From assembly GCA_025358155.1 (NCBI GenBank), contig JANYKR010000295.1, positions 1 to 58,035 of the forward strand: a stretch of DNA of 58,035 nt, read 5' to 3'. Under the pieces are notes generated by a model that saw only the letters and a program-made list of their open reading frames with translations, had not been told where the DNA came from and did not search any database. The position numbers were made by a program, and so were the translations under genes. This DNA comes from Betaproteobacteria bacterium (GTDB lineage: Bacteria; Pseudomonadota; Gammaproteobacteria; Burkholderiales; Burkholderiaceae_C). Positions 393 to 15,748 of this stretch are shown in pieces. Each line of letters starts with the position of its first letter. Within the stretch, counting starts at the first letter, position 1.

Positions 393-1775
393 TCAGGCTG
401 AGCGCAGGTGCCAGGCCTTGGGCCGGGTGAAGGTCTGGATGCCTTGTGCCGACAAGGTCAGCCCGACACCTGAGTCGCGGACGCCCGACCAGGGCAGCCG
501 CGGGCTGACCCGGTCGCAGCAGTTCCAGTACACGCTGCCGGCATGCACGCGCGACAGCAAGGCGCGTGCTGCGGCCTCGTCGCGGCTGTAGACGCCTGCT
601 GTCAGGCCGTAGCGGCTGTCGTTCATCAGCGCCACCGCTTCGTCGTCGTCTTGCACCTTCTGAATGCCGATGATCGGGCCGAAGCTCTCTTCGTGCATCA
701 GGTCCATGGTGTGGTTGACCTCGGTCAGCACCGTGGCCTCGAAGCCGTTGCCGGGGCCGGACAACCGGTGACCCCCACGCCGCAGCGTCGCGCCCTTGGC
801 CAGTGCATCGGCCACTTGCGCGGCCAGCAGCGCCAGTTGCGGGGCCCGGGTTATCGCGCCCAGCGTGGTGGCGGTATCCATCGGGTCACCGGCTTTCAGG
901 CTGTCGACCGTGTGGCAGAAGTGTTCGACAAAGGCATCGAAAACGGCTGCGTGCACGTAGATGCGTTCAACCGAGCAGCAGCTCTGGCCGGTGTTGTACA
1001 TCGCGCCGTCAGCAAGTGATTCAGCCGCTGCCAGCGGGTCGGCATCGGCGCGCACATAACTCGGGTCCTTGCCGCCCAGCTCCAGTTGCAGCTTGACCAG
1101 GCGCGGCGCCAAGACCTGCGCAATGCGCAGGCCGGTGGCATGGCTGCCGGTGAAGAACAGGCCATCGATGGGCTGCGCCAGCAGGGCCTGGCCCACCTCG
1201 GCACCGCCCACCAGGCAGGCCAGCACGGCGGGCGGCACGCCGCTCTCATGCAGCAAGCGGGTGATGTGTTGGCCGGTCAGGGTGGCATGCTCGCTGGGTT
1301 TGTAGAGCACGGCGTTGCCGGTCAACAGCGCCGGCACGATGACGTTGCAGCCGACAAAATACGGGTAGTTCCAGGCCGAGATGTTGGCCACCACGCCGAG
1401 CGGCACATGGCTGATCTGCTCGCGCATGCCGCCGCTGTCGGACACCTGCTGGTCGCCCACGGCAGCTTCGGTCTGCGCCAGAAAATAGTCCAGCCGCGGG
1501 ATCAGGCCGTTGATCTCGCTGCGCGACTGGCTGATCGGCTTGCCGACCTCCTGCGTCAGCGTGCGGGCCAGCGGCTCGATGTCGCGCAGCAGGGCGGCAC
1601 GAAAGCGCGCTATCACCGCCAGTCGCTCGGCGATCGGCTTTGCTGCCCAGGCAGGCTGCGCAGCACGGGCGGCGCCGGCACTGGCGGCCACGCCGACGGC
1701 ATCGTCGGCCGGGATCTCGGTGATCAGTGCCCCAGTGGCCGGGTTGTAGATGCGCAGGGTCGGTGGGGTGGTCAT
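393..1775 (-). CDS. NAD(P)-dependent aldehyde dehydrogenase, last clear gene of the AEP operon
   Basis: 460 residues, the usual length of a succinate-semialdehyde-type aldehyde dehydrogenase. Visible active-site features are the cofactor-binding NAVLYKPSE segment (Lys159), the general base in LELGGKDP (Glu232) and the nucleophile in NTGQSCCS (Cys266). The enzyme should oxidise an aldehyde to its carboxylate in the cytoplasm. It begins 30 bases after the iron alcohol dehydrogenase, so the pair could oxidise an alcohol to an acid in two steps. It is not the phosphonoacetaldehyde dehydrogenase of this locus, which is encoded separately at 11639. The substrate cannot be read from the sequence; a gamma-glutamyl aminoaldehyde is one candidate because of the neighbouring ligase. 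Confidence 0.9.
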   Translation of the reverse strand: MTTPPTLRIYNPATGALITEIPADDAVGVAASAGAARAAQPAWAAKPIAERLAVIARFRAALLRDIEPLARTLTQEVGKPISQSRSEINGLIPRLDYFLAQTEAAVGDQQVSDSGGMREQISHVPLGVVANISAWNYPYFVGCNVIVPALLTGNAVLYKPSEHATLTGQHITRLLHESGVPPAVLACLVGGAEVGQALLAQPIDGLFFTGSHATGLRIAQVLAPRLVKLQLELGGKDPSYVRADADPLAAAESLADGAMYNTGQSCCSVERIYVHAAVFDAFVEHFCHTVDSLKAGDPMDTATTLGAITRAPQLALLAAQVADALAKGATLRRGGHRLSGPGNGFEATVLTEVNHTMDLMHEESFGPIIGIQKVQDDDEAVALMNDSRYGLTAGVYSRDEAAARALLSRVHAGSVYWNCCDRVSPRLPWSGVRDSGVGLTLSAQGIQTFTRPKAWHLRSA

Positions 1776-1805
1776 CGCGGTTGCAAGGTCTGCAGGGTTT
1801 CGGTA

Positions 1806-2939
1806 TCACATCGCCTGCTGGAACAGGCGTTGGTAGTCGGCCTCGACGGCCGGTCTGGGGTTGGTGGCGCCGGCAAAGTCGGTGGCAGCCAGTGCCACCA
1901 GCCGGGGCAGGTGCTCGGGCCTGACACCGCGCGCGGCCAGGCCGCCGCTGATGCCGATCTGCGCCTTGAGCTGCGCCAGCCAGGGCACCAGTGCGGCGCC
2001 GGCATCGCCCAGGCCGACAGCATGCGCCAGGTCGTTGAACCTGGTCGGCACGGCTTCGAAGTTCCAGGCCAGCACCGGCTCGATCATCAGCGCATTGGCC
2101 AGGCCGTGGTGCATGTCGACCACCGCGCCCAGCGCGTGGGCACAGGCATGCACCGAGCCCAGGTCCTTCTGGAAGGCGATCGCGCCCATCATCGAGCTCA
2201 TCATCATGTCGGCTCTGGCCTGCAGGTTGCCAGGGTCGTTGACCGCCGTGGCCAGCGCCCGGGCGCCGATGCGCAAACCCTCCAGCGCAATGCCGTCGCA
2301 CAGCGGGTGCCAGACCGGCGACAAATAGCTCTCGATGTTGTGGGTCAGCGCGTCGATGCCGGTGGCTGCGGTGATGGACGCCGGCAGCGCCAGCGTCAGC
2401 TCGGGGTCGGCAAACACCGCCTTGGCCATCAAGTGGGGGCTGAACACGGCGCGTTTGACGTGGTTGCCGTCCTCGCCCACCACGGCAGACCGGCCCACCT
2501 CCGACCCGGTGCCAGAAGTGGTGGGCAGTGCGATGAAGTGGGGCAACGGATTGACGATGTTGCGCACCTGCGGGTGGTCCCAGACGTACTCGATCACGTC
2601 GCCCTCATGCACCGCCATCAACGCCACCACCTTGGCCACGTCCAGCGCCGCGCCGCCACCAAAGCCGACCACCGCGTCGGCGCCGTGCGCCCGGTAGGCG
2701 GCGGCACCGGCCATCACCTGGCTGGCGACGGGGTTGCCAAAAACGCCGTCGAATACAGCCACGTCCAGCCCTGTCAGGTGGCTGCGGAACTCGGCCAGCA
2801 CCGGCAGTTGCGCCAGCGCCCGGTCGGTGACGATCAGCGGCCGCCGGATGCCTTGCTCCAGCAGGTGGGCGGACACCAGCTTGCGGGCGCCGGCGCCAAA
2901 GTGGATGGGGGTGGGGAATGAAAAACGGGTGATGGTCAT
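1806..2939 (-). CDS. Iron-containing (group III) alcohol dehydrogenase
   Basis: 377 residues starting at the ATG 11 bases after the ligase stop (MTITRFSFPTPIHFGAGA), in preference to a longer open frame that would overlap the ligase gene. The nucleotide-binding GGGAALDVAKVVAL segment and the Fe-ADH metal region (HACAHALGAVVDMHHGLANA, with the conserved HALG...HG...N pattern) are visible. The family reversibly oxidises alcohols with NAD(P). Inside an AEP operon two substrates are plausible by inference: 2-hydroxyethylphosphonate, because a related family member (PhpC) interconverts it with phosphonoacetaldehyde, or the alcohol group of a gamma-glutamylated amino alcohol made by the adjacent ligase. 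Confidence 0.9.
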   Translation of the reverse strand: MTITRFSFPTPIHFGAGARKLVSAHLLEQGIRRPLIVTDRALAQLPVLAEFRSHLTGLDVAVFDGVFGNPVASQVMAGAAAYRAHGADAVVGFGGGAALDVAKVVALMAVHEGDVIEYVWDHPQVRNIVNPLPHFIALPTTSGTGSEVGRSAVVGEDGNHVKRAVFSPHLMAKAVFADPELTLALPASITAATGIDALTHNIESYLSPVWHPLCDGIALEGLRIGARALATAVNDPGNLQARADMMMSSMMGAIAFQKDLGSVHACAHALGAVVDMHHGLANALMIEPVLAWNFEAVPTRFNDLAHAVGLGDAGAALVPWLAQLKAQIGISGGLAARGVRPEHLPRLVALAATDFAGATNPRPAVEADYQRLFQQAM

Positions 2940-2950
2940 GGCGCTGGATG

Positions 2951-4396
2951 TCAGATGATTTCGAAGTAACGCTTGAGTTCCCAGTCGGTCACCGCATCCT
3001 GCCATTGCCGGTGCTCCCACTCGCGGGTGGCGGCGAAGTGATCGACAAAGGTGTCGCCCAGCCAGTCGCGGGCAATCTCTGATTGCTTGAACACCTGGGT
3101 GCCGAGCATCAGCGAGCGGGGCGCACGGGGCACGTCGTCAGCCCCCTGGTTGGTGCCGGTGATCGGCGGGGTGCTGAGCTTGAGGCCTTTCTCAACCCCG
3201 TGCAGGCCGGCGGCAATGACTGCCGCCATCGCCAGGTAGGGGTTCACGTCGGCGCCGGGGCAGCGGGTTTCCAGCCGGGTGGCCTTGGGGCTGCCGGCGA
3301 TGACGCGAAAGCTGGCGGTGCGGTTGTCCATGCCCCAGGTCGGTTTGACGGGGGCCCAGAAGCCATCGACCAGCCGCTTGTAGCTGTTGATGGTGGGCCA
3401 GAACATCGGCGCAAATTCCATCAGGCAGGCGACCTGGCCCGCCAGGTAGCTCTCGAACAGCGGGCTCATGTGGCGCGGGCTGTTGGCGTCGAAGAACAGG
3501 TTCTTTTTGCCGCCCGCTGAGCCGTCCGTCAGGCTCTGGTGGATATGGCCGGAGCAGCCCGGCAGCGACGCATTCCACTTGGCCATGAAGCTGGGCATGA
3601 TGCCGTAGCGCTTGCCGATCTCGCGCGCGCCGGTCTTGAACAAGATGGCGCGGTCGGCTTGTTCCAAGGCCTCGCAAAACGCGATGGCCACCTCGTACAC
3701 GCCCGGCCCGGTTTCGGTGTGCAGGCCCTCGATCGGCACCCGAAAGGCCGCCATCTCGTCCATCAACGCGTTGAAGAACTCGCGTTGGTCGGCCATGCGC
3801 AGCAGCGAGTAGCCAAACATGCCGGGCGTGATGGTTGAGGGCGCCACGCCTTGTTTGGCCGCCCATGTTTGCGGAGTCTCGGCAAAGTTGAACCACTCAA
3901 ACTCCATGCCCGCCATCGGCTTCAGGCCGAGCTTTTCAGCGCGCTTGAGCACGCGTTTGAGGGTCTGGCGCGGGCACACCGCGAACGGCGAGCCGTCGGC
4001 ATTGACAAAGTCGCCCAGGAAAAACGGCACGCCGCTGTCCCAGGGCACGTGGCGAGCGGTGTCGAGGTCGAGCCGGGCCAGTGCATCCGGGAACCCGTGC
4101 TGCCAGCCGGTGACCTGGGTGTTGTCGTAGCAGTGGTCTTGCGAGTCCCAGCCAAACACCACGTCGCAAAAGCCGAAACCACCGTCAGGGTAGGGCTCGG
4201 CAGCGCCGAGAAACTTGTCGCGGTGCAGGTACTTGCCGCGCAGGATGCCGTCGATGTCGCTGCAGGCCACTTTGACCTTGCCGGCGGTTGATTGCCGGAT
4301 GGCCGCGACGGCGGGGTGCTCGGCGGCGGGCTTCGCCGCGGCGCCGGCCATGTTGGCGGTGTTGACCGTGATCTTGCGGGGAGTTCGGGTTGCCAT
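2951..4396 (-). CDS. Glutamine-synthetase-family amide ligase (GlnT/PuuA-like)
   Basis: 481 residues from the ATG at 4396 (MATRTPRKITV), 16 bases after the phnW stop. The protein has the GS beta-grasp start (CSDIDGILRGKYL), the metal/ATP site around MAGMEFEWFNF and TETGPGVYEVAI, the SGHIHQSL loop and the C-terminal RLETRCPGADVNPYLAMAA motif. It belongs to the gamma-glutamyl-amide ligase branch (PuuA, IpuC and similar) rather than to housekeeping GlnA, judging by the altered loops and the Lys/Ala-rich N-terminus of about 30 residues. Those enzymes use ATP to join glutamate to an amine. Its position directly after phnW suggests an amine linked to phosphonate breakdown, such as AEP or ethanolamine; that is inference. 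Confidence 0.85.
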   Translation of the reverse strand: MATRTPRKITVNTANMAGAAAKPAAEHPAVAAIRQSTAGKVKVACSDIDGILRGKYLHRDKFLGAAEPYPDGGFGFCDVVFGWDSQDHCYDNTQVTGWQHGFPDALARLDLDTARHVPWDSGVPFFLGDFVNADGSPFAVCPRQTLKRVLKRAEKLGLKPMAGMEFEWFNFAETPQTWAAKQGVAPSTITPGMFGYSLLRMADQREFFNALMDEMAAFRVPIEGLHTETGPGVYEVAIAFCEALEQADRAILFKTGAREIGKRYGIMPSFMAKWNASLPGCSGHIHQSLTDGSAGGKKNLFFDANSPRHMSPLFESYLAGQVACLMEFAPMFWPTINSYKRLVDGFWAPVKPTWGMDNRTASFRVIAGSPKATRLETRCPGADVNPYLAMAAVIAAGLHGVEKGLKLSTPPITGTNQGADDVPRAPRSLMLGTQVFKQSEIARDWLGDTFVDHFAATREWEHRQWQDAVTDWELKRYFEII

Positions 4397-5560: not shown

Positions 5561-7273
5561 TCAGGCCCGCCATGCTTGGGTTTTTTTGTCGATGCGCCAG
5601 GCCAGCAACGAGAAGGCCCCCATCGCGATGCTGGACGCTGCAGTGATCATCACCGCGCAGGCGGCAGCCGCGCCCATTTCACCCGCCTCGTCGAGGTTCA
5701 GGATGGCAATTGCCGCCACCTTGGTCTCGGGCGAGTACAAGAACACCACCGCCGAGATCGTGGTCATCGCATTGATGAAAAAGTAGCGTGCAATGTCCAC
5801 CAGCGCCGGGCTGCAGATCGGCAGCGTGACGCGCCGGAAGGTGACCCAGAACGGCACCTTGAGCGACGCCGACACCGCCTCGAACTCGGCGTCCAGCGCC
5901 TTCAGTGCGGTCACCGCCGTCAGATGGCCGGTGGTGTAAAAGTGCGCAACCGTGCAGCAGGTCAGCAGCGCCATCGTGTGGTACAGCCCGCTCAGCGGGT
6001 TGCCAGGGGCGTTGAAGAAGAAAATGTAGCCCAGGCCCAGCACCAGGCCGGGCACCGCCATCGGCAGCATGGCCAGCAGGCGCACAGCGCTGCGCAAGGG
6101 TGCTGCGCCCAAGGTTTTTTCCAGCAGGTAGGCGCCCATGAAGACCAGCGCCGTGCCGAACACCGCCGTGCCGGCGGCCATGGTCAGGCTGTTGACAAAG
6201 GCCTCACCCACCTCGGCATCGACCAGGCCCATCGTGTAGTGCTTGAGCGTGGGCTGCAGGTTGTAGGGCCAGAAGCTGGCAAAGGACGCAAACACCGCCA
6301 TGCCCATCATCGCCAGCACCAGCAGCGCGATCAGCGCGCAATAGCCGGTGGCCAGGCTGTCGCGCCAGGCCTTGGGCCGGGGCCGGTAGGGCACGGCGCG
6401 GGCGGTCAGCATGGCAGTCTGTTTGGCGGCAATCGCCCGGTCGACAAAAAACGTCAGCACTGCCGGTGCCAGCAGCAGCAGCGCAACCACCGCGCCGCGC
6501 TGAAAGTCCTGCTGGCCGATCACCAGCTTGAAGACGTCGGTGGCCAGCACATTGAAGTTGCCGCCGATCACCTTGGGGATGCCGAAATCCGTCATCACCA
6601 GCGTGAAGCTGACCAGCGCGGCCGAGATCAGGCCGTACTTGGCGCCCGGCAAGGTGATGGTGACAAACCGGCGCCAGGGCCGGGTGCCCATCGCCTCGGC
6701 CGCCTCGTAGAGCCTGCCATCGGCCGCGCCCAGCGCTGTGACCAGGATCATCAGCGCATGCGGCAACACCGCAAAACATTCGGCCAGCACGATGCCGGGC
6801 GCTCCGTAGATCTGCGCGATGCCCACGGCCTGCATCGCATCCTTGAGCACGCCCTGGTTGCCAAACCAATAAATCAGCGAGATGGCCGACAGCAGCGACG
6901 GCGCCAGCAACGGCAGCAACGTGATGCCACGGAACAGCGGCTTGAAGCGCATGCGGCTGCGGCGCAGTGCGTAGGCAAAACCAAAGGCCAGCGGCAGCGT
7001 GATCAGCGTGACCAGCGCCGAGACCCACAGGCTGTTGCCCAGCGAGTCCAGCAGCGCGGGCGTTTTGGCATAGGCCACAAAGTTGGCCAGGCCGACAAAG
7101 CGGCCCGAGGCGTCGTCCAGCGCTTGTTTGAGGATGGCGCCCAGCGGCGCGGCCAAAAAAATCAGCAGCAGCAACAACACGACGGCCAGACCGAGGTGGG
7201 CCAGCCGGTCGGCAGGGGCGGTGCGCAGGCGTGGCGCGAACGCGTGCGGGGCTGGCGGCAGCGCCGCACTCAC
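5561..7273 (-). CDS. AEP-type ABC transporter permease, two fused membrane domains
   Basis: 570 residues from a GTG at 7273 whose bases overlap the ATPase stop (GTGA). The protein holds two tandem permease domains, each with about six helices and a cytoplasmic EAA-like loop ([20 protein letters not shown] in the first, [20 protein letters not shown] in the second). This fused layout is that of iron(III)/AEP-type importers of the PhnU2 kind. It should form the whole membrane channel with the ATPase at 7270 and the binding protein at 8345. The frame is open much further upstream, but that would bury the start deep inside the ATPase gene. Confidence 0.9.
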
Positions 7274-8334
7274 GCAAAGATCCTCATCCGGTCGGGCAGC
7301 AGCCGCAGCGGCAGGCGGGCCCCCACGACCAGCCCCTGCTCGGACAGGAAGTTGAGCGACAAATAAACCGACAGCCGGTGCGGCCCCAGCGCCGGGCCGG
7401 TCACCTGCACCAGACAGTACGAACCCAGGAACTCGATCTTCTCGATGCAACCCTCAAACACATTGCTGTCGCCGGCGGCCAGCGGCCGGGCCAGCACATC
7501 CTCGGGCCGCAGGTACACCGTCACTTCACGCCCTGCCTGGCCCGGGTGCGGGCAATCGAAGTGTGTGCCCCCCAGCCGCACGCCGCCGGCCTCAAGCCTG
7601 GCGGGCAGGGCGTTGACACGGCCGACAAAATCGGCCACGAAGGCCGAGGCCGGCTCGCGGTAGACCTGCATCGGCGTGCCCACCTGCTCGATCCGGCCGT
7701 GATTCATCACCACGATGCGGTCGGCCACCGACAGCGCTTCTTCCTGGTCGTGCGTCACCATGATGGTGGTCACGCCCAGGCGGCGCTGCAGGCTCTTGAT
7801 CTCCTGGCGCAAATGCACCCGCACTATCGCGTCGAGTGCCGACAGCGGCTCGTCGAGCAGCAGCAAGCCGGGCGAGGTGGCCAGCGCCCGGGCCAGCGCT
7901 ACCCGCTGCTGCTGGCCGCCTGACAACTGCGCCGGCACTTTGGCCTCGCTGCCCGGCAAGCCCACCAGCCCGAGCAACTCAGCTACCCGGGCGCGGATCT
8001 CGGCCCTGGGCCGCTGGCGATTGACCAGCCCGTAGGCCACGTTGTCCGCCACGCTCAGGTTGGGAAACAGCGCGTAGGACTGGAACACGATGCCGTAGTC
8101 GCGCTGGGCCGGCGGCAGGGTGGAGATGTCGCGCCCGGCCTGCAGGATGCGGCCGGCGCTGTGCGCCTCGAGCCCGGCGATGATGCGCAGCAGCGTGGTC
8201 TTGCCGCAGCCCGAGGGCCCGAGAAAGCAGACAAACTCGCCGGAGGCGATCTGCAGGTCCACGCCCTGCAATGCGGTGAAGCTGCCGAACTGCTTGGCAA
8301 CGCCTTCGAGTTGCAGGTAACTCGGCTCGCTCAC
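7270..8334 (-). CDS. phnT: AEP-type ABC transporter ATP-binding protein
   Basis: 354 residues from a GTG at 8334, ten bases after the binding-protein stop. Walker A is GPSGCGKTT, the signature is QLSGGQQQRVALARAL, Walker B is LLLLDEP, and the switch histidine lies in VMVTHDQEEAL-like IMVTHDQEEAL. The last 110 residues form a TOBE-type regulatory domain, as in spermidine/iron-type importers. It energises the permease encoded next. The AEP assignment rests on operon context with PhnW and on similarity to PhnT-type proteins from memory; a spermidine/iron substrate would be the alternative if context were absent. Confidence 0.9.
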   Translation of the reverse strand: MSEPSYLQLEGVAKQFGSFTALQGVDLQIASGEFVCFLGPSGCGKTTLLRIIAGLEAHSAGRILQAGRDISTLPPAQRDYGIVFQSYALFPNLSVADNVAYGLVNRQRPRAEIRARVAELLGLVGLPGSEAKVPAQLSGGQQQRVALARALATSPGLLLLDEPLSALDAIVRVHLRQEIKSLQRRLGVTTIMVTHDQEEALSVADRIVVMNHGRIEQVGTPMQVYREPASAFVADFVGRVNALPARLEAGGVRLGGTHFDCPHPGQAGREVTVYLRPEDVLARPLAAGDSNVFEGCIEKIEFLGSYCLVQVTGPALGPHRLSVYLSLNFLSEQGLVVGARLPLRLLPDRMRIFA

Positions 8335-8344
8335 CCGGCGCGCC

Positions 8345-9412
8345 TTATTTCTTGGGTTCGGACTTGGCGCTGTAGCGCTTGTTCCACTCGGCCAACACCC
8401 GCTCGCGGTTCTCGGCCGCTACGTTGAAGTCCAGCTTGACCAGGCGCGCCTCGTAGTCCTTGGGCACGTTGGCCAACGGCGCAGCCACGCCCGGCTGGGC
8501 GGTGATGGCAAAATTCTTGCCGTACAGCAGCATCGCATCTTTGCTGCTGGCCCAGTCGGCGAGCTTCTTGGCGGCGTCGAGCTTCCTGGTGCCTTTGTGG
8601 ATCGCAAACGCCTCCAGGTCCCAGCCCAGGCCTTCTTTCGGGAAGACCAGGTCGATAGGCGCGCCCTTGGCCTTGTTGGCATTGCCGCGGTATTCGAAGC
8701 TGATACCCACCACGTACTCACCCGCCGCAGCCATGTTGCAGGGCTTGCTGCCGGAGTGGGTGTACTGGCCGATGTTCTCGTGCAGCGCGTCCATGTACTT
8801 CCAGCCGCCGCCCTTGCCGTTGTCGTCGCCCCAGAGCGTCAACCAGGCGGTGACGTCGAAGAATCCGGTGCCCGACGAGGCCGGGTTCGGCATCACCACC
8901 TGGCCCTTGTAGGCCGGCTTGGTCAGGTCTTTCCAGGTCTCGGGCTTGGGGATGCCCTTCTTGGCGGCCTCGACGGTGTTGAAGCAGACCGTGGCACCCC
9001 AGACGTCCATGCCAAACCAGGCCGGCGGGTTTTTCTTGTCCCGGTACTGCGACATGATCGCGTCGAGGTTGAGCGGCCGGTAGGCCTCGAGCATGCCGTT
9101 CTTGTCCAGCAAGGCCAGGCTGGATGCGGCCACGCCCATTACCGCGTCTGCTTGCGGGTTGGCCTTTTCAGCCAGCAGCTTGGCGGTGATCACGCCGGTA
9201 CTGTCCCGCACCCATTTCAGCTCGATGTCCGGATAGGCTTTGTTGAAGCCTTCCTGGTAGGCCTTGAGCTGGTCGGTTTCGAGCGCGGTGTAGACCAGCA
9301 ACTGGGTCTTGCCCTGGGCCATGGCGCCCGTGCTGGTGAAGGATGCGATCAAGGATGCGGTCAGGGCCAAGGCCAGCAGCTTGAGCGGGGGACGGGGGCA
9401 CGGCAATCTCAT
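8345..9412 (-). CDS. phnS: AEP-type ABC transporter periplasmic binding protein
   Basis: 355 residues. The ATG at 9412 has a good ribosome-binding site (CCGGAG) just upstream and begins a signal peptide of about 32 residues ending near TGAMAQ. The mature part begins KTQLLVYTALETDQLKAYQE and follows the iron(III)/AEP-type extracellular solute-binding fold. It is the first gene of the leftward seven-gene operon and is divergent from the regulator at 9582, with 169 bases between them. It should capture AEP in the periplasm. The ligand is inferred from context with PhnW, PhnA and PhnY. Confidence 0.9.
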   Translation of the reverse strand: MRLPCPRPPLKLLALALTASLIASFTSTGAMAQGKTQLLVYTALETDQLKAYQEGFNKAYPDIELKWVRDSTGVITAKLLAEKANPQADAVMGVAASSLALLDKNGMLEAYRPLNLDAIMSQYRDKKNPPAWFGMDVWGATVCFNTVEAAKKGIPKPETWKDLTKPAYKGQVVMPNPASSGTGFFDVTAWLTLWGDDNGKGGGWKYMDALHENIGQYTHSGSKPCNMAAAGEYVVGISFEYRGNANKAKGAPIDLVFPKEGLGWDLEAFAIHKGTRKLDAAKKLADWASSKDAMLLYGKNFAITAQPGVAAPLANVPKDYEARLVKLDFNVAAENRERVLAEWNKRYSAKSEPKK

Positions 9413-9538
9413 GAAGTTCTCCGGATCAAGAAGGGAAGCGGCAAAAAAACTCAGAGCATGGACCGGCGACCGTGACAGCACGATGACCGAATCGGAGCAT
9501 GTTGTCGGCCTGCTGTGGCCTTGTCAATGGTAGTTTGT

Positions 9539-9581: not shown

Positions 9582-13147
<3,566 letters not shown>

Positions 13148-13150
13148 GCC

Positions 13151-13720
13151 ATGCCCTCAAGCCTGTTCTCCCTTGACGACATCGAGCTGCTCTACCGCCG
13201 GCGCGGTCAGGCGCAATACAGCGGCGAGCCGGTGACCCAGCTGCAGCATGCACTGCAGGCCGCCGCGTTGGCCGAAGCCGATGGGGCCGATGACGAACTC
13301 GTCACCGCCGCGCTGCTGCACGACCTGGGTCACCTGGTGGTGGACCCGGGTGCCGATGCTGGCCACACCCCCACCCTGCACGGCGTGGACGATCTGCACC
13401 AGTTCATTGCCTTGCCGTTCTTGCGCCGATTGTTCTCGGCCCGGGTGCTGGGCGCGGTGCAAGGGCATGTCGACGCCAAGCGCTACCTCTGCGCCACCCG
13501 GCCCGGTTACCTCGATGCGTTGTCGGCCGACTCCCGGCGCAGCCTGGTGTTGCAGGGCAGTGCCTTCAGCGCAACGCAGGCTGCTGATTTCAGCGCCCGG
13601 CCGGGTGCCGAAGAGGCCGTGCGCCTGCGCCTGTGGGATGACGAGGCCAAATCGGCCGACAGGGTCACGCCGACGCTGCTCCACTTCATGGCCCGGGCCC
13701 GGCGTTGCGCGCTCGCCTGA
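13151..13720 (+). CDS. phnZ: PhnZ-type HD-domain phosphonate oxygenase
   Basis: 189 residues, the size of PhnZ. Residues of the mixed-valent di-iron HD oxygenase fall almost exactly where they do in PhnZ: Tyr23 and Glu26 in QYSGEP (PhnZ Tyr24/Glu27), His33, His57-Asp58 in LLHDLGH, His83 in DDLHQF, His106 and Lys110 in GHVDAKRY, and Asp163/164 in LWDDEAK. PhnZ cleaves 2-amino-1-hydroxyethylphosphonate to glycine and phosphate. The gene starts 3 bases after phnY. PhnZ normally needs a PhnY* hydroxylase, and a PhyH enzyme that could serve is encoded at 15903. Confidence 0.88.
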   Translation: MPSSLFSLDDIELLYRRRGQAQYSGEPVTQLQHALQAAALAEADGADDELVTAALLHDLGHLVVDPGADAGHTPTLHGVDDLHQFIALPFLRRLFSARVLGAVQGHVDAKRYLCATRPGYLDALSADSRRSLVLQGSAFSATQAADFSARPGAEEAVRLRLWDDEAKSADRVTPTLLHFMARARRCALA

Positions 13721-13744
13721 TGCCACCCTGGTGCGAGTCAGCGT

Positions 13745-14638
13745 TTGCCGCCTGATCCGACGCCGCTGGCCCTGACCTGGCCCATTGTTGCCGCCGTGCT
13801 GGTGGGTGCGCTGCTGCATGCGGGCTGGAACGCGCTGGTCAAGAGCAGCGGCGACAAGCCGCTCGACACTGCACTGGTGCATTTTCTCGGTGCGCTGGTG
13901 GCCCTGCCACTGCTGTGCCTGACGGGGCTGCCGGGCCCGGCGGGCCTGCCTTACATCGCCGCATCCTTGGTCATCCACATCGGCTACTACATCGCGCTTG
14001 CCGGGGCTTACCAGCACGGCGACCTGGGCCTGACCTACCCGATCATGCGGGGCTTTGCGCCCTTGTTGGTGGCTTTGGGCAGCAGCGCGCTGATCCACGA
14101 GACCCCGAGTGCCGCCGCCTGGGTCGGCATCGTCGGCATCTCCCTCGGGGTGGCGTTGGTGGGCCTGGCGCACCCAGGTGAAGCGCTGCACCACCGCAAG
14201 GCACTGGCCTATGCGTTTGCCAACGCCGGCATCATCGCGGTTTATACCGTGGTCGACGGCCTGGGGGTGCGCACCGAGGTGGCGCACGGCGGCCAGGCGC
14301 TGCGTTATGTGATGCTGCTGTTTGTGCTGGACGGCATTGCCTACCCGGCGCTGGTCTGGCTGCGCCGCGATGCCACCGGACGGCGCCAGATCGTGGCCTA
14401 CGCCCGCCGTCGCTGGCCGCTGGCCGCGCTCGGCGGCAGTGCTTCGATAGGCTCGTATGCGATTGCACTGTGGGCCATGACCCGGGCACCGGTGGCCAGT
14501 GTGGCCGCGCTGCGCGAAACCTCGGTGCTGTTTGCAGCGCTGCTGGGCAGCCGGTTGTTGAAGGAGAAGTTCGGCCTGCAGCGCGCCTTGGGCACCGCGG
14601 TGATCCTGGCCGGCGTGATGGCCCTGCGAATGGGCTGA
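13745..14638 (+). CDS. EamA-family membrane protein of the phosphonate operon
   Basis: 297 residues with about ten hydrophobic helices in two EamA halves (LVGALLHAGWNALVKSSGD near the start, ASVAALRETSVLFAALLGSR in the second half). The only start in a frame closed at 13718 is a TTG at 13745, 24 bases after phnZ. Phosphonate clusters of Burkholderiales often contain an EamA-like 'phosphonate utilization associated' membrane protein, and this matches in place and size. It may move a phosphonate or a product across the inner membrane. A hairpin follows 10 bases after its stop. Confidence 0.82.
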   Translation: MPPDPTPLALTWPIVAAVLVGALLHAGWNALVKSSGDKPLDTALVHFLGALVALPLLCLTGLPGPAGLPYIAASLVIHIGYYIALAGAYQHGDLGLTYPIMRGFAPLLVALGSSALIHETPSAAAWVGIVGISLGVALVGLAHPGEALHHRKALAYAFANAGIIAVYTVVDGLGVRTEVAHGGQALRYVMLLFVLDGIAYPALVWLRRDATGRRQIVAYARRRWPLAALGGSASIGSYAIALWAMTRAPVASVAALRETSVLFAALLGSRLLKEKFGLQRALGTAVILAGVMALRMG

Positions 14639-14648
14639 GGCCGGACGT

Positions 14649-14672
14649 CAGCCAGTCCCTGCGGACTGGCTG
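14649..14672. terminator. Hairpin between convergent EamA genes, possible terminator
   Basis: A perfect 10-bp stem (CAGCCAGTCC/GGACTGGCTG) with a CTGC tetraloop starts 10 bases after the EamA stop and lies before the convergent gene's 3' end at 14741. There is no T-run on either strand, so it is a terminator-like hairpin of the GC-rich type and not a textbook intrinsic terminator. Confidence 0.6.
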
Positions 14673-14740
14673 TCGCCTGCCGAAGCGGCCGAGCTCTGCG
14701 AGGCCGTGGGGTGCCACGGCACAGGCCGGGCATTTCCGGA

Positions 14741-15748
14741 TCAGCCCGCCGACGGCCTGGCCAGGATCACCAGCGCCACGCCACCCAATACCGCCGCCGA
14801 GGCGCCCAGCAGATGCGGCGTCAGCAGCTCGCCCAGCAGCAAGACACCACCGGCGGTGGCCAAGGCCGGCACCGTCAGTTGCACGATGGCCGCCCGCGTA
14901 GCGGACAGGCCGCGCAGCGCTGTGTACCAGATGGCATAGCCCAGGCCCGAGGCCAGGGCGCCCGAGGCCAGCGCCAGCAGGGCCCCTTGCACGTCCCAGC
15001 GCGCCAATGGCCAAAGCAGCGCGCTGACGCCCAGCGCCAAGGGCGCTGCCCGCAAGAAGTTGCCGGCGGTCACCGTGGTGGCATCGAGCACGGCTCCACC
15101 CGAACCCGTGGCGCGACCCCGCAGCGTGTACACCGCCCACGCCACACCGGCACTGGCCATCAGTGCGCCCGCACTCAGTGACGGTGCGGTCAGACCGGGC
15201 AGCAACAGCCACACCAGCCCGGCACTGGCGGTCACCAGACCCAGCCACTGCAGCGGCCGCAGCCGCTCGCCCCGCGACAAGCCCCAGCCGATCATCGAGG
15301 TCTGCACCACGCCAAACAGCAGCAGGGCGCCGGTGGCGGCAGTCAGGCTGACATAGGCAAATGAAAATCCAGCGGCATAGACAAACAGGGCCAGTGCAGA
15401 CAGCCAACTTCCGCCCTGCCACGGCCGCAGCGCTGGCGCTGTGTAGCTGGCACCTTGGCGGCCAGCCCCCGTGCCTGAGCGACCTCGCAAGAACACCAGC
15501 AGCGCCAGCATCAACGCGCCCGAGGCCAGGCGCAGGCTGGTGAAGCTGGCCGGGTCGATGCCGGTCTGCTTCAAGGCGATGCGGCACAGCAGCGAGTTGC
15601 CGGCAAAGGCCAGCATCGCCAACAGCGTCAACGCGGCGGTGCGGCCAGGTGGTGCTGTGGACGGCGGTGCAAACGCGGATGCAGCAGCTTGCCGCGACGG
15701 CGCAGCAGACGGGACGGCAGACTCGGCGGCGGGCGGTGGTGGGCGCAT
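14741..15748 (-). CDS. EamA/DMT-family transporter
   Basis: 335 residues from the ATG at 15748. After a Pro/Ala-rich cytoplasmic N-terminus of about 37 residues come ten hydrophobic helices in two EamA halves (LLAMLAFAGNSLLCRIALKQ opens the first). It is convergent with the EamA gene at 13745 and divergent from the dioxygenase at 15903. It is the third EamA-type gene within 16 kb and differs in sequence from the other two. The substrate is unknown; location suggests but does not prove a role in phosphonate export or import. Confidence 0.85.
   Translation of the reverse strand: MRPPPPAAESAVPSAAPSRQAAASAFAPPSTAPPGRTAALTLLAMLAFAGNSLLCRIALKQTGIDPASFTSLRLASGALMLALLVFLRGRSGTGAGRQGASYTAPALRPWQGGSWLSALALFVYAAGFSFAYVSLTAATGALLLFGVVQTSMIGWGLSRGERLRPLQWLGLVTASAGLVWLLLPGLTAPSLSAGALMASAGVAWAVYTLRGRATGSGGAVLDATTVTAGNFLRAAPLALGVSALLWPLARWDVQGALLALASGALASGLGYAIWYTALRGLSATRAAIVQLTVPALATAGGVLLLGELLTPHLLGASAAVLGGVALVILARPSAG

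Follow-up and report, generated by a model that had tools for sequence, protein, structure and literature searches.

Gene Content of the Locus

The window analysed here is a stretch of 58,035 nucleotides from a Betaproteobacteria bacterium of the Burkholderiales (contig JANYKR010000295.1), in which three genes, encoding a ligase of the glutamine synthetase (GS) fold, an iron-type alcohol dehydrogenase (Fe-ADH or ADH) and an aldehyde dehydrogenase (ALDH), are appended to an operon for the breakdown of 2-aminoethylphosphonate (AEP). As argued below, this trio is probably the known pathway for gamma-glutamylation of ethanolamine, or of a very similar small amino alcohol, placed in an AEP operon. 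On the minus strand the gene order is phnS2, phnT2, phnU2, phnW, ligase, ADH, and ALDH, phnW being the gene directly upstream of the trio, while phnR, phnA, phnY, and the genes for an HD protein and a membrane protein run in the opposite direction. The gaps of 16, 11, and 30 bases reported by an earlier sequence-only reading between phnW, the ligase, the group III ADH, and the ALDH were confirmed on the minus strand, as were the coordinates; the start codons of the trio were chosen rather than proven, and the gaps hold with those starts (ligase, ATG at 4396 in a frame extending to 4471; ADH, ATG at 2939 in a frame open to 3020, two additional 5' codons being included in its Pfam scan). The contig (G000:C213) begins 392 bases past the end of the ALDH gene, so that genes farther downstream lie outside the available sequence. 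The features are as follows:

393-1775, minus strand: ALDH, proposed gamma-glutamyl-aminoacetaldehyde dehydrogenase (GAADDH-like); PF00171 (Aldedh), 413 bits
1806-2939, minus strand: group III Fe-ADH, proposed gamma-glutamylethanolamide dehydrogenase (GETADH-like); PF00465 (Fe-ADH), 146 bits, and PF25137
2951-4396, minus strand: GS-fold ligase, proposed ethanolamine gamma-glutamylase (ETAGA/GlnA4-like); PF00120 (Gln-synt_C), 296 bits
4413-5573, minus strand: phnW, 2-aminoethylphosphonate:pyruvate aminotransferase; NF010006, 549 bits (cut-off 296), and TIGR03301, 458 bits (cut-off 360.8)
5561-7369, start uncertain, minus strand: phnU2, AEP-type ABC importer; NCBIfam match over cut-off
7270-8334, minus strand: phnT2, AEP-type ABC importer; NCBIfam match over cut-off
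8345-9481, minus strand: phnS2, AEP-type ABC importer; NCBIfam match over cut-off
9582-10409, plus strand: phnR, divergent regulator of the GntR family; TIGR03338, 311 bits (cut-off 271.5)
10417-11649, plus strand: phnA, phosphonoacetate hydrolase; TIGR02335, 589 bits, over cut-off
11615-13147 (frame), plus strand: phnY, phosphonoacetaldehyde dehydrogenase; TIGR03250, 852 bits, over cut-off

All seven phn proteins (S2, T2, U2, W, R, A, and Y) exceed curated NCBIfam cut-offs, including those of the phnU2/phnT2/phnS2 importer at 5561-9481 (TIGR03262, 784 bits; TIGR03265, 496 bits; TIGR03261, 495 bits), and the PhnW-PhnY-PhnA route is complete within the window. The trio proteins pass no NCBIfam cut-off among the matches listed, which for the ALDH are the best 25 of 44, all below cut-off. 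The ALDH has the Cys of NTGQSC and the Glu of ELGGK, which we take to be its catalytic residues.

The Ligase Active Site

When the ligase was aligned with the genome's own GlnA (the L125 row, which is out of frame in this alignment, was disregarded), the Glu, His, and Arg motifs that presumably serve the formation of gamma-glutamyl-phosphate were retained. The column matching GS E327, which we take to be the glutamate aiding ammonia in the Salmonella enzyme, is a Trp in all 91 family rows and likewise in a protein annotated ipuC. On this assignment of residue roles, the gamma-glutamyl-phosphate site is intact and the ammonia site altered, as expected of the GS-fold ligase of an ethanolamine gamma-glutamylation pathway. 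The protein does not qualify as an ammonia-dependent glutamine synthetase, given the Trp at the E327 equivalent and its scores on TIGR00653 (192.6 of 429.15 bits) and TIGR03105 (193.7 of 469.6 bits), nor as the gamma-glutamylputrescine synthetase PuuA (NF045547, 150.9 of 650 bits).

Conservation of the Trio and Its Linkage to phnW

When the genome collection was scanned with the ligase as query, 409 relatives were returned, of which the best 80 loci were analysed, a set hence biased to near relatives (ligase at least 77% identical in the best segment; most are titled Betaproteobacteria or Burkholderiales). In 62 of the 80 loci a PhnW gene precedes the ligase in the same orientation; the distance is at most 250 bases in 53 of them and at most 3 kb in 61. 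The sequence-only reading had named, as grounds for its own refutation, a trio rarely found beside phn genes in relatives, and the survey did not bear this out. Among the 18 loci without PhnW, six have less than 700 bases upstream and are uninformative, and 12 have at least 2.5 kb; dropping just the six short negative loci (62/74) would flatter the link, and the even-handed fractions are 48/60 where the upstream sequence reaches at least 2.5 kb and 43/50 where it reaches at least 5 kb. Downstream of the ligase and on the same strand, the ADH gene is found in 60 of the 63 loci with at least 4.5 kb of downstream sequence; an ALDH gene of the same kind lies downstream in 58, and both dehydrogenase genes stand beside the ligase in 58 of 63, as expected of an ethanolamine gamma-glutamylation pathway.

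We also examined 300 genomes of the order, the window's included. Fourteen encode a ligase at least 64% identical, and PhnW occurs in eight of these 14 versus 34 of the 286 others (Fisher P = 1.2e-4); in those eight genomes, ligase and PhnW lie on one contig, at most 27 kb apart, every time. Because 34 of the 42 PhnW-bearing genomes lack a ligase of the trio type, the AEP pathway has the trio as an accessory and not as a fixed part. The order also contains a ligase group at 45-51% identity, for which PhnW occurs in 4 of 15 genomes and was never seen linked (three on separate contigs). Across the phylum, 398 genomes were compared: a ligase relative (E-value at most 1e-60) occurs in 57, PhnW in 43 and both in 17, with the pair at most 27 kb apart only in the window genome, in G638, a member of the window's own family whose ligase is 85% identical and adjacent to PhnW, and in G333; in G546 the pair is 53 kb apart. 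The linkage in G333 proved a false lead, since its ligase is 40% identical, its PhnW-like protein is below cut-off and 36% identical, and 19 kb of sequence hold no ADH or ALDH match.

A Fourth Gene Encoding a Putative Gamma-Glutamyl Hydrolase

Most relatives have a gene of about 260 codons between those of the ADH and the ALDH. Its product matches Peptidase_C26 (PF07722; 186-193 bits in three proteins tested), the nearest NCBIfam model for two proteins tested being PuuD, at 104 and 93 of 266 bits and thus below cut-off. According to tblastn with four queries, 53 of the 63 loci whose downstream sequence extends for at least 4.5 kb have this hydrolase gene; 44 of the 63 encode PhnW, ADH, and ALDH together, and the gene is present in 39 of those. 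ADH and ALDH occur without it in the window and in L038, L045, L073, L082, L100, L111, and L114; since this absence amounts to four changes on the ligase tree, the gene has probably been lost more than once. The window genome encodes one strong PF07722 protein elsewhere (220 bits, contig C266) and two weak ones. A small number of other genomes were compared: G038 and G240, without a local hydrolase, have strong PF07722 proteins elsewhere, G104 and G118, with a local one, have no further strong copy, and G638 combines a local copy with two others.

In five loci (L034, L042, L046, L052, and L078), the ligase follows phnW and the ADH and/or ALDH genes are not near. In four of these five genomes, an ALDH orthologue sits elsewhere with a hydrolase gene adjacent, so that the pathway tends to survive broken linkage; the L052 genome, a small 2.1 Mb assembly, gave no match.

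The space between ligase and ADH is a recurrent insertion site for unrelated genes (L041, L055, L058, L069, L072, L084, L098, L102-L104, L108, and L109), from which it follows that the ligase is tied to phnW and that ADH-hydrolase-ALDH form a second tight block. The genes inserted here or between phnW and ligase were considered as clues to the substrate and set aside, because they are a mixed cargo with no single theme: GNAT, peptide-binding protein, PIN-type, M20 peptidase, and FAD enzyme genes were recognized by eye from translated frames, some of them spurious, and one AraC regulator was confirmed by Pfam. L099 and L106 carry, between phnW and ligase, a gene for a 411-residue oxidoreductase that by eye is of FAD type and may be related to the PbfB-D aminophosphonate oxidases.

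Clues to the Substrate

In four loci without phnW (L048, L050, L061, and L062), whose ligases are 82-83% identical to that of the window, a permease gene directly precedes the ligase. The L048 permease matches the ethanolamine permease model TIGR00908 with 628 bits (cut-off 381.75), and the three others are 90-96% identical to it (tblastn). In L084 (Roseateles toxinivorans), genes for an AraC-type regulator and a permease lie between phnW and the ligase, the permease scoring 360 bits on TIGR00908, just below cut-off. In L116, a fused EutB-EutC gene and EutA (11182-15219, minus strand) precede the ligase, separated from it by one glyoxalase-like gene; L115 has homologues of both, 92 and 80% identical to those of L116, and the ligases of both loci are 74-77% identical to that of the window. 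EutA/EutBC were found in no other locus of L030-L137. The arrangement in L116, with homologues in L115, places EutA/EutBC before ligase-ADH-hydrolase-ALDH, that is, two ethanolamine routes side by side.

In a quick phylogenetic tree of the ligases (SH-aLRT supports only, with 35 of 101 inner branches weakly supported; the duplicates L110, L112, and L113 were dropped, and L125 and L137, whose extracted ligase frames are too short, were left out of the tree), the four permease-linked rows group together as a clade within an 83-row clade (support 99) of which 65 rows are phnW-linked, and a group of 13 rows unites them with the window (support 88). We then searched for columns in which at least 90% of the phnW-linked set have one residue and all four permease-linked rows share another. 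For the ligase, only 3 of 460 columns differ in this way (63 phnW-linked rows; window residues 401, 411, and 478), none of them at a catalytic motif; the figures are 1 of 379 for the ADH (52 rows) and 2 of 460 for the ALDH (45 rows). The simplest reading of these comparisons is that one substrate, ethanolamine or a close analogue, would be used in both the phnW-linked and the permease-linked settings.

A Proposed Ethanolamine Pathway

From gene set, gene order, conservation, and neighbours, we infer the substrate, the order of reactions, the provision of the hydrolase in trans, and the reason for the linkage. The ligase would join glutamate to ethanolamine at the expense of ATP, giving gamma-glutamylethanolamide; the Fe-ADH would oxidize its hydroxyl to an aldehyde, the glutamyl cap shielding the amine from reacting; the ALDH would yield gamma-glutamylglycine; and a PF07722 gamma-glutamyl hydrolase would release glycine and glutamate, a step probably performed, in the case of the window, by the homologue encoded on contig C266. 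Gamma-glutamylation with ethanolamine as a candidate substrate had been among the suggestions of the sequence-only reading, and it gains support from the neighbours in relatives: the gamma-glutamyl hydrolase, the TIGR00908 permeases, and EutA/EutBC.

Several observations weigh against this pathway. The hydrolase gene is not in the window's operon, and the best PF07722 protein of the genome adjoins two other GS-like genes. The window genome has no TIGR00908 match and no EutB, an ethanolamine permease occurs in only one of the 62 phnW-linked loci, and of the 12 PhnW-free loci for which at least 2.5 kb of upstream sequence is available, eight display no such permease and no EutA/EutBC. EutB shows no depletion among ligase-bearing genomes (2/14 vs. 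51/286 of the others), and for want of such an anticorrelation the idea that the trio replaces ethanolamine ammonia-lyase was discarded as evidence. Moreover, the ligase stays with phnW in 62 of 80 loci, for which an unrelated pathway would have no obvious need. Finally, relatives at 45-46% identity on alphaproteobacterial plasmids (Rhodobacteraceae and Rhizobiaceae) adjoin genes for polyamine-type ABC transporters and aminotransferases; because of these, the wider ligase family is not only about ethanolamine, and the setting of the plasmid subfamily gives ethanolamine no support.

Known Systems and Alternative Substrates

Conversion of ethanolamine through gamma-glutamylethanolamide, the corresponding aldehyde, and gamma-glutamylglycine to glycine and glutamate is described in the available text of PMC10132767, PMC6529630, and PMC9397018. 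For Streptomyces, that text presents the first step as demonstrated and the remainder as proposed (PMC6529630; PMC9397018), and the pathway is also treated for C. salexigens and A. tumefaciens (PMC10132767). The ethanolamine operon of Phaeobacter MED193 (ETAGA, GETADH, GAADDH, GGAH, and EtoVWX) encodes the same set of functions, the comparison being one of gene functions, and the hydrolase is present in most relatives of the trio. It differs in gene order (ligase-ALDH-ADH by locus tag, vs. ligase-ADH-(hydrolase)-ALDH here) and in its TRAP transporter, which is missing here, where the genes are instead joined to phnSTUW and the window's operon lacks the hydrolase. In the GlnA4 cluster of Streptomyces coelicolor, a gamma-glutamylethanolamide synthetase is likewise encoded near a dehydrogenase, an ALDH, and a predicted hydrolase; the available text of that paper (PMC6529630) names a short-chain dehydrogenase for oxidation of the alcohol and leaves phosphonate unmentioned. 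The putrescine (Puu) pathway shares the GS-fold ligase and PF07722 hydrolase families, but the ligase reaches only 151 of 650 bits on NF045547 and the trio includes no amine oxidase.

The trio had been put forward as an undescribed branch of AEP breakdown. This description is not supported: the enzyme set matches the ethanolamine pathway described in the accessible parts of PMC6529630 and PMC10132767, 12 of the 80 loci have the trio and no phnW, and no consistent difference separates the ligase active sites of the two settings. The novelty lies in the arrangement, by which AEP and ethanolamine, two head-group amines, are apparently handled from one operon in Burkholderiales. Among the papers listed by open-access library searches aimed at phosphonate operons, no title or abstract opening describes such a ligase beside phnW (supplements and subscription journals were outside the scope of this search). 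The terms "glutamine" and "ligase" do not occur in the available text of PMC10590968, PMC12366243, PMC8154272, and PMC10574752, the first of which uses "glutamyl" three times, for PuuB and a reference only, and the accessible part of PMC9311074 makes no mention of such genes.

Alternatively, the substrate of the ligase might be an aminophosphonate, either AEP or 1-hydroxy-AEP, or else an amino alcohol that arises from one, making the trio a true accessory phosphonate branch. PhnW upstream in 62 of 80 loci would suit this proposal, and so would eight loci with phnR and phnW in which no phnS/phnU was seen and the ligase still comes after phnW. However, gamma-glutamyl-AEP has no hydroxyl for an ADH and then an ALDH to act upon, close orthologues adjoin an ethanolamine permease or EutBC without phnW, the active site does not differ consistently, and PhnW-PhnY-PhnA is already complete in the window, all of which makes the proposal unlikely.

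The same gamma-glutamyl chemistry might instead act on another small amino alcohol or amine, such as propanolamine, alaninol, or isopropylamine by the Ipu route. The ligase is 40% identical to the annotated ipuC of Paenarthrobacter aurescens TC1, also a GS-fold ligase with an amidotransferase gene nearby, permeases can be broad, and polyamine-type transporters adjoin other members of the wider family. On the other hand, the P450 and ferredoxin genes that adjoin ipuC in TC1 have no counterpart among the scanned trio and phn proteins, the short-chain dehydrogenase gene of that region is also missing, and the closest markers in the neighbourhood match ethanolamine models (TIGR00908, EutA, EutB, and EutC); we therefore regard such a substrate as improbable. 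An Ipu pathway would require monooxygenase genes together with the ligase, and the scanned trio and phn proteins include none. The Ipu likeness drawn by the sequence-only reading thus holds only partly, the P450 and ferredoxin genes of the ipuC region being missing here.

That the Fe-ADH oxidizes 2-hydroxyethylphosphonate to phosphonoacetaldehyde and the ALDH oxidizes this to phosphonoacetate, with an incidental ligase, is very improbable: the product would feed PhnY and PhnA, as is established, but the ADH scores 144.2 bits on TIGR03405 (PsrA, a phosphonate-associated Fe-ADH; cut-off 423.7), the cluster already has PhnY, which is about 30% identical to the trio ALDH (query vs. L146 and L115 orthologues), and ADH and ALDH accompany ligase and hydrolase at loci that have no phn gene nearby. 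For this oxidation and for AEP ligation, both raised by the sequence-only reading, the survey yielded no evidence.

Why the Trio Lies beside phnW

Returning to ethanolamine as the substrate, the linkage to phnW probably reflects a shared source and shared regulation of AEP and ethanolamine. The two amines are corresponding head groups, AEP of phosphonolipids and ethanolamine of phospholipids, and may arrive together, in which case the operon would yield phosphorus, nitrogen, and carbon; it is this analogy that makes a shared source and joint control by PhnR plausible. In the eight loci mentioned above (L077, L078, L080, L083, L087, L091, L096, and L106), which have phnR and phnW and no phnS/phnU in the available stretch, phnW is nevertheless followed by the ligase, in L106 after one intervening gene, so that the importer alone is not the glue.

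A more far-reaching version, which we consider possible though somewhat doubtful, is that PhnSTU2 also imports ethanolamine or a precursor, that PhnR controls both sets of genes, and that the head groups of lipid phosphonates and phosphate esters are degraded as a unit, AEP supplying phosphorus and ethanolamine supplying nitrogen and, as glycine, carbon. On this view it would make sense that a permease occurs in only one of 62 phnW-linked loci yet characterizes the phnW-free clade next to the window, and that TIGR00908 finds no match in the window genome; the eight phnW-linked loci without PhnSTU genes near speak against it. The scarcity of permeases in phnW-linked loci and the lack of a TIGR00908 match in the window genome would be compatible with ethanolamine entering through PhnSTU2 or by diffusion.

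The proposed pathway makes a testable claim of the extra genes that many AEP operons of Burkholderiales carry without explanation, namely that these clusters also degrade ethanolamine. The lyase EutBC needs B12, and the trio would allow ethanolamine to be used without this enzyme; phosphonate and phospholipid head-group turnover would, moreover, be linked in one operon. For annotation, we suggest ethanolamine gamma-glutamylase rather than glutamine synthetase for the ligase, and caution that trio genes beside phnW should not be taken as a sign of a new phosphonate substrate.

Other Features of the Locus and Its Relatives

Downstream of phnY, the HD-domain protein (13151-13720, plus strand) scores 213.3 bits on TIGR03276, the phosphonate degradation HD-domain oxygenase (cut-off 214.6), 144 of 300 bits on TmpB and 126 of 300 bits on PhnZ1; judged by these matches, it is possibly an oxidative phosphonate enzyme inside a hydrolytic cluster. 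The EamA-type membrane protein that follows (13745-14638, plus strand) reaches 229 of 288 bits on TIGR03340, a phosphonate-associated family with no function assigned. Between the EamA gene and phnS, L036 carries a gene related to Na/Pi cotransporters (2251-4140, minus strand; TIGR00704, 265 bits, cut-off 210), and a similar gap of about 2.1 kb is seen in L040, L041, L051, L058, and L063, the cotransporter scan having covered L036 alone. Lastly, L035, a metagenome-assembled contig titled Bordetella parapertussis, groups in the ligase tree with L031 (Burkholderiales) and L033 (Betaproteobacteria), and its title is probably that of a misnamed bin.

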